Assembly (NCBI RefSeq): GCF_005222205.1
Contig: NZ_CP032349.1
Coordinates: 186,001-250,000, forward strand
Length of the DNA stretch: 64,000 nt
Reading direction: 5' to 3'
DNA from: Azospirillum brasilense
GTDB taxonomy: Bacteria > Pseudomonadota > Alphaproteobacteria > Azospirillales > Azospirillaceae
The position numbers and the translations under genes were made by a program. The notes under the pieces were generated by a model. It saw nothing but the letters and a program-made list of their open reading frames with translations. It was not told where the DNA came from and ran no database searches. This document shows positions 10,221-16,512 of this stretch, one piece after another; the stretch's first letter is position 1, and each line of letters starts with the position of its first letter.

Positions 10221-10694
10221 ATGACCACCACGCCCGCCGGCGCGGCGACCCCGCGCGAGATCCACGACGACGCCCTGGCCCTCGTCCGCCACTTCGAGGT
10301 CCTGTAACTCAAGGCCTACCTGTGCCCCGCGGGTGTTCCCACCATCGGCTACGGCCACACCGCCGGGGTCCGGATGGGCCAGACCATCACCTCCCTCCAG
10401 GCTGAGGTCTACCTGCGTGCCGACATGGCCGAGGCCGCCCGGGACGTCGACCGGCTCGTGAAGGTGCCGCTGACCGATCGGCAGCGCGGCGCCCTGGCCT
10501 CCTTCGTGTTCAACCTGGGGGCCGGCGCCCTGCAGACCTCGACGTTGCTGCGCCTGCTGAACCAGAGCGACCACAAAGGCGCCGCCGGCCAGTTCGGGCG
10601 CTGGGTATACGCCACGGTGAACGGGGAGAAGGTGGAGCTGGAGGGGCTGAAGAAGCGCCGGGCGGCGGAGAGAGCGATATTCGAGGCGGGCTGA
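10221..10694 (+). pseudogene. Phage lysozyme (GH24 muramidase), interrupted by an in-frame TAA
   Basis: The frame begins at ATG 10221 with a good AGGAAG site. It reads the GH24 N-terminus up to the catalytic Glu (VRHFE), then V-L and TAA at 10305-10307, and continues in the same frame as LKAYLCPAGVPTIGYGHT, the family signature with its T/G-Y-G-H-T loop. The C-terminal half (RQRGALASFVFNLGAGALQTS) is intact to TGA 10692-10694. In working endolysins the sequence after Glu is G-L-(R/K)-L-K-A-Y, so both the Gly-to-Val change and the stop are damage. It once lysed peptidoglycan together with the holin downstream. Readthrough is conceivable but unlikely to restore full activity. Confidence 0.8.
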
Positions 10695-10806: not shown

Positions 10807-11496
10807 ATGAGAATGAGAACGCCTAAAGCCTTAACAGAATCCCGAAACGTCTTTTGTGGACTACTGGCGCTACTATCCGTTGCGGCCCTGACTGCGCCGG
10901 CTGCTGCGGAACCGGCCTACGGCTTCGCACCAGGGAACACACTGCCGATCTTCACATTCCACGGCGAGGACGGTGTGCGTCGCTCAACGGCGGAGTTTCG
11001 TGGCAAGTGGTTCCTTTTCAAGCGGGGAGCCGAATGGTGCATGCCGTGCATCGGAGAGCGGCCTTCGGTCGAGAGCTTCATGAAGGCCCACCCGGATGTG
11101 CCTGTCGTAATGATCGTTTCCCCGCGTCCCAGCGAGACCGACCTGGAAGGGGCATTCCAGCGTGACCTGAACTATCAGCGGCGAAAGGGGCTGCGTACGG
11201 ATTACATCGCCGTGTCTGACAGCCGCGACCCAGCACCCCGCGACCTTCCATCGCCGAAGTCCGTCACCGACCTTCCGTTGACCATCGTCGTCGATCCTCA
11301 GGGCGTTATCGCCGCGCTGTGGACCAGCACGTACCAATACCAACGCCACTTCATGAGGCATGGGATCGTCGGCAAGGCTGAACCAGAGTTCCGTGACTAC
11401 GTCGAGGCTTTGCTTTCGTGTAAGGGAGCTAAAGGGGTGGCTGCGACCTCCTCAGCGCTGGAGATTGCGAAGTCGTTCGACGCTTCCTGCTCATGA
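10807..11496 (+). CDS. Exported thioredoxin-like (TlpA/AhpC-TSA fold) protein
   Basis: 229 residues. A Sec signal peptide (about 1-35, ending APAAAEPA) precedes a thioredoxin-fold domain with the redox motif WCMPC (C78, C81) and a later cis-proline-type LPLTIVVDPQGV. CxxC proteins exported this way act in the periplasm as thiol-disulfide reductants, for example in cytochrome c maturation, or as peroxiredoxin-like enzymes. It sits alone between the broken lysozyme and a terminator, with no cytochrome-biogenesis gene nearby, so its partner is unknown. Its position within a phage lysis block suggests a passenger (moron) gene or an insertion. Confidence 0.82.
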   Translation: MRMRTPKALTESRNVFCGLLALLSVAALTAPAAAEPAYGFAPGNTLPIFTFHGEDGVRRSTAEFRGKWFLFKRGAEWCMPCIGERPSVESFMKAHPDVPVVMIVSPRPSETDLEGAFQRDLNYQRRKGLRTDYIAVSDSRDPAPRDLPSPKSVTDLPLTIVVDPQGVIAALWTSTYQYQRHFMRHGIVGKAEPEFRDYVEALLSCKGAKGVAATSSALEIAKSFDASCS

Positions 11497-11550
11497 CGTA
11501 AGGACGCCTCGGCGACCAGCCCAGCATCGCCGATCAGCACCGTAGACCCA

Positions 11551-11585
11551 GCCCGCCCGAACTTCCGCGGCGGGCTTTTCCTTTT
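11551..11585 (+). terminator. Rho-independent terminator of the thioredoxin-like gene
   Basis: GCCCGCC (11551-11557), 11-base loop, GGCGGGC (11569-11575) and TTTTCCTTTT. It sits 55 bases after the stop codon at 11496 and is the strongest terminator in this part of the window. Confidence 0.75.
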
Positions 11586-11678
11586 CCGCAGCCCCCATGG
11601 CCGAACTCCTCAACCCGAAACCGGCCCGCCCACCGGCTCGGGCGATGGGGCAATGCCGCTGGGATCGACGGAAAGCGC

Positions 11679-12152
11679 TCATCGGAAAGGAGCAGCCAAC
11701 CCCTGGAAGCAACTGGCTGGCGACTGGTTCAGGCTGGCCCAGAACGCGCTCAAACTACGGATCGCCTCAGATAAAGCTTCGGAATCCATGGGCTTAACAA
11801 CGAACGCGTTCGCGCCCAGCTCGTAGCTGAGTATGATGTCGTTGTGCTCGCATGACGCCGTGAACATGACGATAGGGACGTGCCGGATGGCCGGGTTGCT
11901 CTTCACCCGTTCCAGCACTTCCAGCCCATCGATCTTCGGAAGATGGAGCTCGAGCAGGACGACTGCGGGAAGCTGGGTTGGCCATCCGGTTTCCGGATCG
12001 CGAAGAGACAGCAACCGCAGCGCTTCTTCACCATCGCGGGCGACAATAATACCGTTGGAAAGTTTGCATTTCTTCAGCGCCGCCAGCGTCAGTTCCAGGT
12101 CCCGTAGGTTGTCCTCGACCACCAGGATGGGCTTTAGGGCACTTGTCGTCAC
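11679..12152 (-). CDS. Stand-alone receiver protein (Rcp1-like) with Glu in place of the phosphoacceptor Asp
   Basis: 157 residues covering one receiver domain of the Rcp1/CheY-like type used with phytochrome-like kinases. The acidic pair is present (E13, D14 in VVEDN), as are the switch Thr (T98 in VMFTAS) and Lys (K120 in VVKPMD). The strand that normally reads LLDLNLP reads LLELHLP, so the phosphorylated Asp is Glu68. A receiver of this kind cannot form the usual aspartyl phosphate and may be locked in an active-like state. GTG 12152 is preferred as start because GGGAG lies six bases upstream; ATG 12167 lacks a site. No kinase gene is adjacent. Confidence 0.85.
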   Translation of the reverse strand: MTTSALKPILVVEDNLRDLELTLAALKKCKLSNGIIVARDGEEALRLLSLRDPETGWPTQLPAVVLLELHLPKIDGLEVLERVKSNPAIRHVPIVMFTASCEHNDIILSYELGANAFVVKPMDSEALSEAIRSLSAFWASLNQSPASCFQGLAAPFR

Positions 12153-12584
12153 TCGCGTCTCCCGCATCAGTTAGTTTGTCGTTGAACACCGCGGGCGCGA
12201 AATTATTCACTCACTACCCAAATGTGACGATTGGTGCTCCTTCGATGCTGTCCAGGGAATTTAGGCGGAGGCGGGGCGGTACAGGTTCAGGCCTTCATTG
12301 GCTATCAGTTGCCGAACTGGTGAGGGTGACAGCAACCCGCACGCTCTCGCCGAATATTCCAGCGGGCGAGTTGGTTTGAGGGCGTGACCGCCGGGTAGGG
12401 ACGTCACCCCCTACGTTCGGTCGCCCCACCCGAAGATGGGCCGACGCCGGCCCGTATTGTCCGGTCCACACAACGGTCACTGTCCGCGACGTGTGCGTGC
12501 TGAGCCGAGGCTCCCCCGCCACCCAACGTCCGAAACGTCTTCGCAGACTGCCCAAAGCCTACAGCACCGAGGTTTCACCCACCA
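12153..12584. other. Gene-poor stretch between the receiver gene and the holin gene
   Basis: I see no convincing gene. The left part (to about 12240) is the promoter side of the receiver gene and is less GC-rich. The rest is GC-rich with short frames only, and ends at the hairpin leader of the holin gene. Confidence 0.5.
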
Positions 12585-12615
12585 GCCGCCCGGCCCTCGC
12601 CGAGGCGGCATTTTT
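12585..12615 (+). promoter_or_regulatory. Hairpin plus T-run in the holin leader
   Basis: GCCGCC (12585-12590) pairs with GGCGGC (12604-12609), followed by ATTTTT. It ends 25 bases before the holin ATG and resembles the hairpin at 9367-9388. It could be a terminator of upstream transcription or an attenuator. Confidence 0.4.
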
Positions 12616-12640
12616 CATGCTCGAAGGAGGGGCACCCATC

Positions 12641-13174
12641 ATGCTGCCACTGCTCATCCCCATCATCTCCGCCCTGGCACCGGTGCTGCTGCCGGAGGTC
12701 GCCAAGGCTGCGGGCGGCACCGGCGAGACCGCCCAGAAGGTCGGCGAAGCCGCGGTGTCCGTCGTCTCCGCCGTCACCGGCGTGCCGACCGAGACCCCGG
12801 CGGACGCTGAGCGCGCCGTCGCCGCAGTGCAGACCGATCCGGCGAAGCTGGCCGAGCTGTACCGCCAGCAGAGCGATCAGGTCGTGGCGCTGCTCCGGCT
12901 GGACAATGAGGACCGGGCCGACGCCCGCGCCCAGACGGTCCAGCTTGCCCAAGCCGGAAGCCGCATCTCCTGGGGAGCGCCGGTCGTCTCGACCATCGTC
13001 CTGGTGACGTTCGGCATCGTGCTTTACCGGGTGCTGAGTCAGCCGGCCGGCGCGATCGACCAGAACGCCACGCTGATGCTCGGCGCCCTGACCACCATGG
13101 CATCGGCGGTGGTGTCCTACTGGGTCGGCTCCAGCGCCGGCAGCGCGGCGAAGGACAAGCTGCTGCGGAAGTGA
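12641..13174 (+). CDS. Holin-like membrane protein (GTA-type 3-TM holin family)
   Basis: 177 residues with hydrophobic segments at about 1-20, 112-130 and 144-162 and an acidic middle containing DNEDRADARAQ. This order fits the three-helix holins of gene transfer agents and related alphaproteobacterial phages, which open the inner membrane to endolysin. ATG 12641 has GAAGGAGG ten bases upstream; an earlier in-frame ATG (12617) overlaps that site and is less likely. The reading frame is intact, unlike the lysozyme partner upstream. The gene is followed by a short frame that may be another truncated lysis gene. Confidence 0.75.
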   Translation: MLPLLIPIISALAPVLLPEVAKAAGGTGETAQKVGEAAVSVVSAVTGVPTETPADAERAVAAVQTDPAKLAELYRQQSDQVVALLRLDNEDRADARAQTVQLAQAGSRISWGAPVVSTIVLVTFGIVLYRVLSQPAGAIDQNATLMLGALTTMASAVVSYWVGSSAGSAAKDKLLRK

Positions 13175-14934: not shown

Positions 14935-15207
14935 TCAGCACTCCTTGACACCTTCTGCCCAGCGCCGGAGTTGTGCGAAGTCAGCTAACAGCCTTTGTCC
15001 TTCTACGCTGACTTCGCTGCCACGGGGCGTATTGCGGATCATCAGATATCCGATTCTCAGGGGGATTGTGCTGTCGATGACGAGATGCCTCGCACCGTCC
15101 GGTAGCTCCTGTCCCTCCATTGGCCCCTGATCTAAGAAATCTTTCCGGCATGCAGCGATCATGGTCTTAAGCCGAAGAACAATGAGGGTTGGCTCATCCG
15201 CAACTAG
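14935..15207 (-). pseudogene. 3' part of a 140-codon gene split by the IS5-family element
   Basis: Without the IS and one copy of its CTAG target duplication, this segment joins 16513-16666 in frame. It makes a 423-base reading frame (140 residues and stop), which confirms that both pieces were one gene. This part encodes VADEPTLIVLRLKTMIAAC onward to EGVKEC and TGA at 14935. The product was soluble after a hydrophobic N-terminus; I do not recognise the family. Confidence 0.75.
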
Positions 15208-16512
15208 CAGGGTGCGGAAAAAGGGCTGTGCACGGGCGGTTGGTCGTGATTCTTTTCGGTTGAGAAGAACGCGACCGACGAGGGGACGATGCGGGGTTCG
15301 GACGAACGCAGCGAGGGTCTGTTCAGCTACGTGAGCTGCGAGGCGCGGGTTCCAGCCAACCACCCGCTGCGAGCGATCCGGGCCATCGTGGACGAGGCGC
15401 TGGAGGTGATGTCGCCGGCGTTCGAGGGGCTGTACTCCAAGATCGGGCGCCCCTCGATCCCGCCGGAGAAGCTGCTGCGGGCGCTGCTGCTCCAGGCCTT
15501 CTACTCGGTGCGCTCGGAACGCCAGTTGATGGAGCAGCTCGATTACAACCTGCTGTTCCGCTGGTTCGTCGGCCTGTCCATGGACGCCCCGGTGTGGGAC
15601 GTCACCGTGTTCACCAAGAACCGCGAGCGTCTTCTGGCCGGCGATGTGGCGGCCAAGTTCCTGGCGACCGTGCTGGGTCAGCCGAAGGTCAAGGCGCTGC
15701 TGTCGGACGAGCATTTCTCGGTGGACGGCACGCTGATCGAAGCCTGGGCGTCGGTGAAGAGCTTCCGGCCCAAAGACGGCAGCGGCGAGCCGCCGGGGCC
15801 GGGGCGCAACGGCGAGCGCGACTTCCATGGCGAGAAGCGGTCCAACGAGACGCATGCCTCGACCAGCGATCCCGAGGCGCGGCTCTACCGCAAGGGCAAC
15901 GGCCAGCCGGCGAAGCTGGCCTTCATGGGCCACGCGCTGATGGAGAACCGCCACGCCCTGGTGGTGGACGTGCGGCTCACCGCGGCCAGCGGCCTGGCCG
16001 AACGTGCGGCGGCGGTGGCCATGATCGAGGCCATCCCCGGCCGCCACCGCATCACGGTCGGCGCTGACAAGGCCTACGACACCAAGGATTTCGTGGCGGA
16101 CATGCGCGACTTGGGCGTGGCTCCGCATGTTGCCCGAAATACCAGCAACCGCCGCTCGGCGATCGACGGCCGGACCACCCGCCATCCCGGCTACGCCGTC
16201 AGCCTGCGGGTCCGCAAGCGGATCGAAGAGGTCTTTGGCTGGATCAAGGGAGCCGGCTTGCGCAAGACGCGCCATTGCGGAGCAGCCCGTGTCGGTTGGA
16301 TGTTCACCCTAACCGCCACCGCTTACAACCTGATCCGCCTGCCCAAGCTGCTGGCTGCGGCATAATCACGCCCGCAATCCGCCTGAACGGCGGTTCTGGG
16401 AGCCTCGGAGCGAGGAAAAACGCTCCGTCCCGACCAAATCGCCCGCTGAAACCCGCATTCTCAGCCTCAGCGGAGGAAAAAGGCCGGAATATGTTCGTTT
16501 TTCCGCACCCTG
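15208..16512 (+). mobile_element. IS5-family insertion sequence, complete
   Basis: 1305 bp. The left end CAGGGTGCGGAAAAA and the right end read inward are identical over 15 bases. CTAG flanks both ends (15204-15207 and 16513-16516), the 4-bp target duplication typical of the IS5 subgroup. One transposase gene fills it. The perfect ends and duplication mean a recent insertion. Confidence 0.9.
15289..16365 (+). CDS. IS5-family DDE transposase
   Basis: 358 residues. It contains an N-terminal helical domain (GRPSIPPEKLLRALLLQAFY) and a DDE catalytic core with D in HFSVDGTLIEAW, D in VGADKAYDTKDF and E in RKRIEEVFGWIK. The frame is intact, so the element is probably active. ATG 15289 is the first start after the left end. 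Confidence 0.93.
   Translation: MRGSDERSEGLFSYVSCEARVPANHPLRAIRAIVDEALEVMSPAFEGLYSKIGRPSIPPEKLLRALLLQAFYSVRSERQLMEQLDYNLLFRWFVGLSMDAPVWDVTVFTKNRERLLAGDVAAKFLATVLGQPKVKALLSDEHFSVDGTLIEAWASVKSFRPKDGSGEPPGPGRNGERDFHGEKRSNETHASTSDPEARLYRKGNGQPAKLAFMGHALMENRHALVVDVRLTAASGLAERAAAVAMIEAIPGRHRITVGADKAYDTKDFVADMRDLGVAPHVARNTSNRRSAIDGRTTRHPGYAVSLRVRKRIEEVFGWIKGAGLRKTRHCGAARVGWMFTLTATAYNLIRLPKLLAAA

Follow-up and report, generated by a model that had tools for sequence, protein, structure and literature searches.

A prophage-borne Azospirillum receiver with glutamate at the phosphoacceptor position and its descent from a bacteriophytochrome response regulator

The window, the whole 64,000-nucleotide stretch of Azospirillum brasilense DNA analysed here, holds a single-domain pseudo-receiver in which glutamate stands in the place of the phosphoacceptor aspartate (Table 1). 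Alignments, a tree and comparisons of loci show a single, phylogenetically placed Asp-to-Glu origin of this protein from the regulator of a bacteriophytochrome (BphP) operon and to its present life as prophage cargo under selection. That combination is what is new; Glu-bearing pseudo-receivers and receiver families in PHROGs were already known. An earlier first-pass annotation had read the gene as a natural constitutive receiver. What stands of that interpretation is a natural Glu receiver with no output domain, found here to be clade-fixed and under purifying selection. The permanent on-state appears less likely, and the prophage setting and the BphP-regulator ancestry had been missed.

Table 1. 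The receiver and neighbouring features in the window
Feature	Position	Strand	Remarks
Phage endolysin remnant	10221..10691	+	88.5% to the copy on contig C1; one in-frame stop
Thioredoxin/TlpA-like protein	10807..11496	+	AhpC-TSA at 23.2 bits, under the cut-off of 26; also at the receiver-less loci of G044 and Sp7
Phage ORF start, 34 bp	11597..11630	+	MTELLSPKLVRR... in L089 6232-6795 minus; truncated by the cassette
Cargo cassette with receiver, 718 bp	11631..12348		blastn matches to receiver-less prophages stop at 11630 and resume at 12349
Single-domain pseudo-receiver, 157 aa	11679..12152	-	Glu68 (GAG) in the phosphoacceptor place; GTG start; alternative ATG start at 12167 gives 162 aa
Putative sigma-70-like promoter match (TCGTCA, 17 nt, AATAAT)	12202..12230	-	upstream of the receiver
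177-aa PHROG 1544 protein	12641..13171	+	function unknown in PHROGs; 'holin-like' is a label from position and hydrophobic make-up
YgjV-type membrane gene stub, 26/170 residues	13185..13262	+	full length in the C1 prophage

The Glu receiver and its copies

A GGGAG site, shared with the other copies, lies 6 nt upstream of the GTG codon. Because of this site, and because the resulting length is like that of the homologues, the GTG start was preferred over the upstream ATG. The same two points support the coordinates and numbering given earlier, to which the strand, minus, has to be added. Residues E13, D14, E68, T98 and K120 counted from the GTG are E18, D19, E73, T103 and K125 counted from the ATG. 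The strand sequence reads VVLLELHLP, the phosphoacceptor codon is GAG and the acid pair, Thr and Lys of the active site are all intact, so the first-pass reading of Glu for Asp with E13, D14, T98 and K120 preserved was borne out by alignment and codon alike. Pfam Response_reg matched with an E value of 7.3e-17 and no second Pfam domain was found in the ORF at E 0.001, in agreement with the claim of a natural Asp-to-Glu receiver without an output domain. The structure model has an ordinary receiver fold (mean pLDDT 78.5, low in the tails) and is uninformative on activation.

With a receiver profile, a (beta-alpha)5 fold (Pfam, model and Foldseek) and the conserved Asp missing, the protein belongs to the pseudo-receivers, or aspartate-less receivers (ALRs), in which Glu is reported as the commonest replacement, at 26% (PMC4395418). 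It differs from a typical ALR in keeping the acid pair, Thr and Lys together, in standing alone, in having an Asp paralogue of about 71% identity in the same cell and in being phage cargo. Similarity to the Glu receiver located 64 receiver places in the same genome, with Asp as the phosphoacceptor residue at 60, Ser at one and Glu at three. Two of the three Glu places are copies of this gene, and the third is a different receiver (L140, G000:C2:57643-58176, with VAVELALPHFD).

The second copy lies on contig C1 of the same genome and is 99% identical; with further ones in G040 and G043 (Azospirillum sp. OGB3), there are four close Glu copies within 3 of 45 Azospirillum genomes. Taken to E 1e-30, the genus homologue set from these 45 genomes comprised 44 matches, and the remaining 40, none above 73% identity, all have Asp. 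Glu, encoded by GAG in the window and GAA in the other three copies, is therefore fixed in its clade (4/4 against Asp in 40/40), which answers the alignment check that had been proposed. A read error or a single-strain mutation was ruled out by the four copies, two codons and three genomes. At 75 and 108 (ATG numbering) the window copy differs from the other three in having His for Asp.

The six Glu-Glu pairs had dN/dS values of 0.054-0.093, as against 0.25-0.39 in 16 Glu-Asp and 0.02-0.31 in 28 Asp-Asp pairs, with the first 33 columns of L010 masked here and in the fixed-difference analyses. In the codon comparison the L027 codons were disregarded as out of register, a stop having been dropped by the aligner. 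Glu was retained across the GAA/GAG difference between copies, and the values indicate strong purifying selection on the Glu clade. A chance Glu in a decaying gene was disfavoured by the low dN/dS. The G043 copy is split near codon 33, with its parts at the ends of two contigs (L040 and L097). The DNA past the break at one contig end recurs on other Azospirillum plasmids, and no named element was found in the annotated region of the best-matching plasmid. The split is likely due to an insertion; an insertion sequence as its cause is a guess. With one of four copies split, the gene seems dispensable there.

Descent from the bacteriophytochrome regulator

The tree was built from 44 rows, some from outside the genus (4 Glu and 40 Asp), with the phosphoacceptor column removed and the first 23 core columns of L010 masked. 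The Glu rows formed one clade (100/100; the bootstrap had not settled) nested among brasilense-group Asp rows, on a stem of 0.42. This gives a single origin of the Glu receiver from the BphP-operon response regulator, and the codons indicate that Asp became Glu by a third-position change, from GAC or GAT to GAA or GAG. Together with the nested clade, the nearest solved chains place the protein among the BphP-operon regulators by common descent. These chains were 5brj (3e-45) and 5ic5 (3e-41), then 6xvu and Rcp1; Foldseek likewise put 5brj at the top and returned chains named AtBRR, RtBRR and a Deinococcus regulator. Like the bacteriophytochrome regulators (AtBRR 5brj, RtBRR 5ic5, Rcp1, RcpA and DrRR), which are its best sequence and fold matches, the protein is a single receiver with a C-terminal extension. 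Unlike them, it has Glu for Asp in 4/4 copies, altered alpha5 phenylalanines and NEPP arm residues, and a place in prophages.

The Asp relatives are flanked on one side by a bacteriophytochrome (PAS_2, GAF, PHY, HisKA, HATPase_c) and on the other by a PAS hybrid kinase. This trio was present at 8/8 Asp loci checked, among them those of all three Glu-bearing genomes. Of 11 Asp loci that are more distant, 10 have a BphP match alongside. The Glu-bearing genomes have thus retained the Asp regulator alongside its phytochrome kinase, and this paralogue is about 71% identical to the Glu form. Among the neighbours of the Glu copies, in the neighbourhoods examined, no phytochrome gene was found. The same order of phytochrome, CheY-type regulator and hybrid kinase has been described in Ramlibacter; there, losing the hybrid kinase has an effect like that of losing the phytochrome (PMC6848086). 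In A. brasilense the bacteriophytochrome is said to govern how the cell responds to photodynamic stress (PMC10383956) and to aid red-light tolerance (PMC4618731).

The prophage setting

Accessory genes that lie among the late genes of a phage are known as morons, and the comparison of loci assigns the receiver to such cargo in Azospirillum prophages. As in phage morons, it sits between late genes on the opposite strand, and related phages lack it at that site; unlike theirs, the cargo is a signalling receiver. PHROG profiles found baseplate wedge, tail fibre and endolysin proteins around the C1 copy, and further from it sheath, major head, head decoration, portal, terminase, tape measure, minor tail, helicase and replication initiation proteins. 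In L101-L102, 29 ORFs were picked; the distal scan covered 10 of them, and 9/10 matched. A PHROG family was absent for 3/10 L038 proteins, 4/7 window proteins and 1/10 L101-L102 proteins. A 'Mu-like' label for the prophage was dropped, as the PHROG matches support only a contractile-tailed prophage. When 11 C1-prophage proteins were searched in the window, three were found: the endolysin, the PHROG 1544 protein, in which Pfam found no match, and the YgjV stub.

The window receiver is flanked by the endolysin remnant and the PHROG 1544 gene, and at G040 and G043 the receiver stands between an endolysin match and a partial PHROG 1544 match. Receiver-less loci define the cassette. The A. brasilense Sp7 locus (L053 = L098) matches the window to 11630 and again from 12349, with a YCII-domain gene between, while locus L096 of G044 matches to 11630 and again from 12582; the matches of L092 and L093 also resume at 12349. 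On the left, the cassette cuts off a phage ORF after its first 34 bp. By eye, a GC-rich inverted repeat with T after it precedes 11597, where the terminator scan called none. The promoter search over 11400-12700 on both strands gave one match against a mean of 0.2 in shuffles, and the alignment shows the sequence around this match to be conserved in the copies of C1 and G040.

Cargo near the Glu receiver varies, with the TlpA-like gene in the window, L039 and L040, a globin-coupled chemoreceptor in L038, and a dCache hybrid kinase and Crp-type regulator in L039. A cargo slot between the endolysin and the PHROG 1544 gene can be followed through the window (11568-12601), L038, L039, L053, L089, L092, L093, L095 and L096, with junction sequences in common and contents that are exchanged (receivers, hybrid kinase, globin-coupled chemoreceptor, Crp, YCII, TlpA-like). 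In L039 the left junction element occurs twice, once on each side of the hybrid kinase, and in the C1 prophage a Protoglobin-MCP chemoreceptor (L038:7958-9322) adjoins the receiver. Another stand-alone receiver, of 125 aa, occurs in genomes G008 and G035 (L089:3197-3574, minus; L092:5572-5949, plus; L095:4940-5317, plus); by eye its Asp is the usual one, a PHROG 1544 gene or fragment is close by, and the L089 example was run against Pfam. Prophages L089 and L092 hold it in the same stretch as the slot of the Glu receiver. Placement of the L095 one in the slot is unsure: a PHROG 1544 fragment is nearby, and upstream come a Cache protein and a synthase-like ORF. Elsewhere in the window, 15289-16365 looks by eye like a transposase ORF, and 15204-15680 is 96.9% identical to a region of the Sp7 prophage.

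Six PHROG profiles matched the receiver, all of unknown function, and a search of phage records gave 63 matching records, all below 60% identity. No relatives of the receiver were found in viral contigs, and megablast of the 718-bp cassette against plasmids gave no match; a search of genome contigs gave eight loci, of which only that of Azospirillum sp. OGB3 (the G043 copy) exceeded 53%, and records of the same or nearly the same genome were possibly excluded from these searches. Searches of the available literature library returned nothing under 'phage-encoded response regulator' or like phrases and, among the matches listed and judging by title or by title and start of abstract, no work on a prophage bacteriophytochrome response regulator.

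Altered sites and possible modes of action

The 17 Asp rows in the parent clade served as reference for mapping fixed differences from the Asp parent at core positions 11-150, and four divisions of the protein were tried. The face formed by alpha4-beta5-alpha5 and the start of the arm had differences at 18/47 sites and the rest at 14/93 (p 0.003). The bias was also seen for alpha4 and alpha5 alone (13/28 against 19/112, p 0.002) and with the helices and strand of the model as the division (13/32 against 19/108, p 0.015). The alpha1 stretch, which is the kinase-docking helix, had changed at 2/16 sites compared to 30/124 elsewhere, a count that is not significantly low (p 0.36). Controls between Asp groups ran in the opposite direction without significance: 6/47 on the face and 23/93 elsewhere for the parent against the lipoferum group (p 0.12), 3/47 and 12/93 for the parent against a third group, and 4/47 and 17/93 for lipoferum against the third group. 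Compared to these more distant groups, the Glu form itself gave 22/47 and 37/93 (lipoferum, p 0.47) and 18/47 and 24/93 (third group, p 0.17). The clustering is therefore significant against the Asp parent only, and weaker against the more distant groups.

All 162 columns together gave 49 fixed differences. Polarising was possible for 33, of which 31 fell on the Glu side; L057, L058 and L059 were excluded from polarising. These three and L055 and L056 were also excluded from the site analysis of 35 Asp rows, where 66 sites are invariant. At least one Glu row differs at 13 of them, and every Glu row with a letter there differs at 12. The altered residues of the parent include D73, K75, F129, F132, G140 and E148 (ATG numbering).

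These observations suggest that the phage-borne Glu receiver probably acts on host signalling unphosphorylated. The best explanation, to which we give a rough probability of 0.38, is that the prophage pseudo-receiver docks on the phytochrome kinase and competes with the host regulator independently of phosphorylation. The Glu receiver would take no phosphate at the usual site and would work without it. It may still dock, by way of the little-changed alpha1, on the phytochrome kinase or on another kinase that shares its docking surface, while the altered alpha4-beta5-alpha5/arm face would have lost pairing and signalling of the kind seen in the host regulator. In a lysogen, competition with the host regulator would then damp or re-route red-light signalling. 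As the alpha1 count is not significantly low, the kept docking is argued from sameness and not from a test. The alpha5 helix and the beta5-alpha5 loop also contact kinases, and their alteration here counts against kept docking. The retained Thr and Lys, needless for a pure decoy, count against the decoy as well. A precedent is Osp of Rhodobacter, a single-domain receiver that inhibits a kinase unphosphorylated; FixT, discussed in the same paper, likewise acts on a kinase (PMC9430884). The acid pair kept here is absent in both, and the part of that paper available to us mentions no phage link for either.

Under the first-pass annotation the receiver would be permanently on: Glu would pair with the kept Thr and Lys, mimic phospho-Asp and drive the output of the phytochrome regulator constantly. 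Glu does lie beside an intact acid pair, Thr and Lys, and the underlying idea of Asp-to-Glu as a phosphorylation mimic holds in part, as the change activates some regulators but often is not enough by itself and needs further changes (PMC4395418; PMC12632262). An on-state copy should keep the parent's output face, yet the alpha4-beta5-alpha5/arm face, the would-be output surface, is the part most altered, with F129, F132, G140 and E148 among the residues lost. We therefore regard constant activation as unlikely, and a decoy or modulator at the phytochrome kinase appears to be a slightly better fit than a host-regulator copy that is always on.

The third main reading, beside competition at the kinase and constant output, is that the receiver was re-tuned in the prophage to another kinase, a chemoreceptor pathway or a phage protein, leaving the phytochrome pathway untouched. 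The long stem (0.42) followed by strong constraint is consistent with this, as are the signalling neighbours at single loci (the globin-coupled chemoreceptor in L038; the dCache hybrid kinase and Crp-type regulator in L039), but the neighbours vary by locus with none constant, and alpha1 is little changed (2/16 sites). We give a new partner a lower probability than the competition reading. The in-frame stop of the window endolysin, the recovery of only 3/11 C1-prophage proteins in the window and the split G043 copy would suit an inert passenger on decaying prophages. Such a passenger is improbable given the clade dN/dS of 0.05-0.09 and a frame that is intact in 3/4 copies, one of them inside a prophage remnant. 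Continued acceptance of phosphate, on Glu or on the Asp two residues on, would agree with the kept catalytic neighbours and with LLELDLP in 3/4 copies. The window copy has His at that place, and we know of no receiver that uses the position two residues past the phosphoacceptor; we consider this the most improbable of the readings, with very little chance of being correct.

A wider version of the competition reading is that temperate Azospirillum phages captured the BphP regulator, froze it with Glu, rebuilt its output face and override red-light signalling in the lysogen, with a slot that swaps other signalling genes. This is speculative, with the odds against it as a whole. A 2025 review called the switching of pseudo-receivers on and off a mystery (PMC12632262). 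Here the upstream kinase is known and one genome holds both an Asp parent and a Glu derivative, about 71% identical, which makes it possible to test within a single cell what losing the phosphoacceptor costs and does. If the proposed reading is true, a phage would be carrying a piece of a light-sensing pathway.
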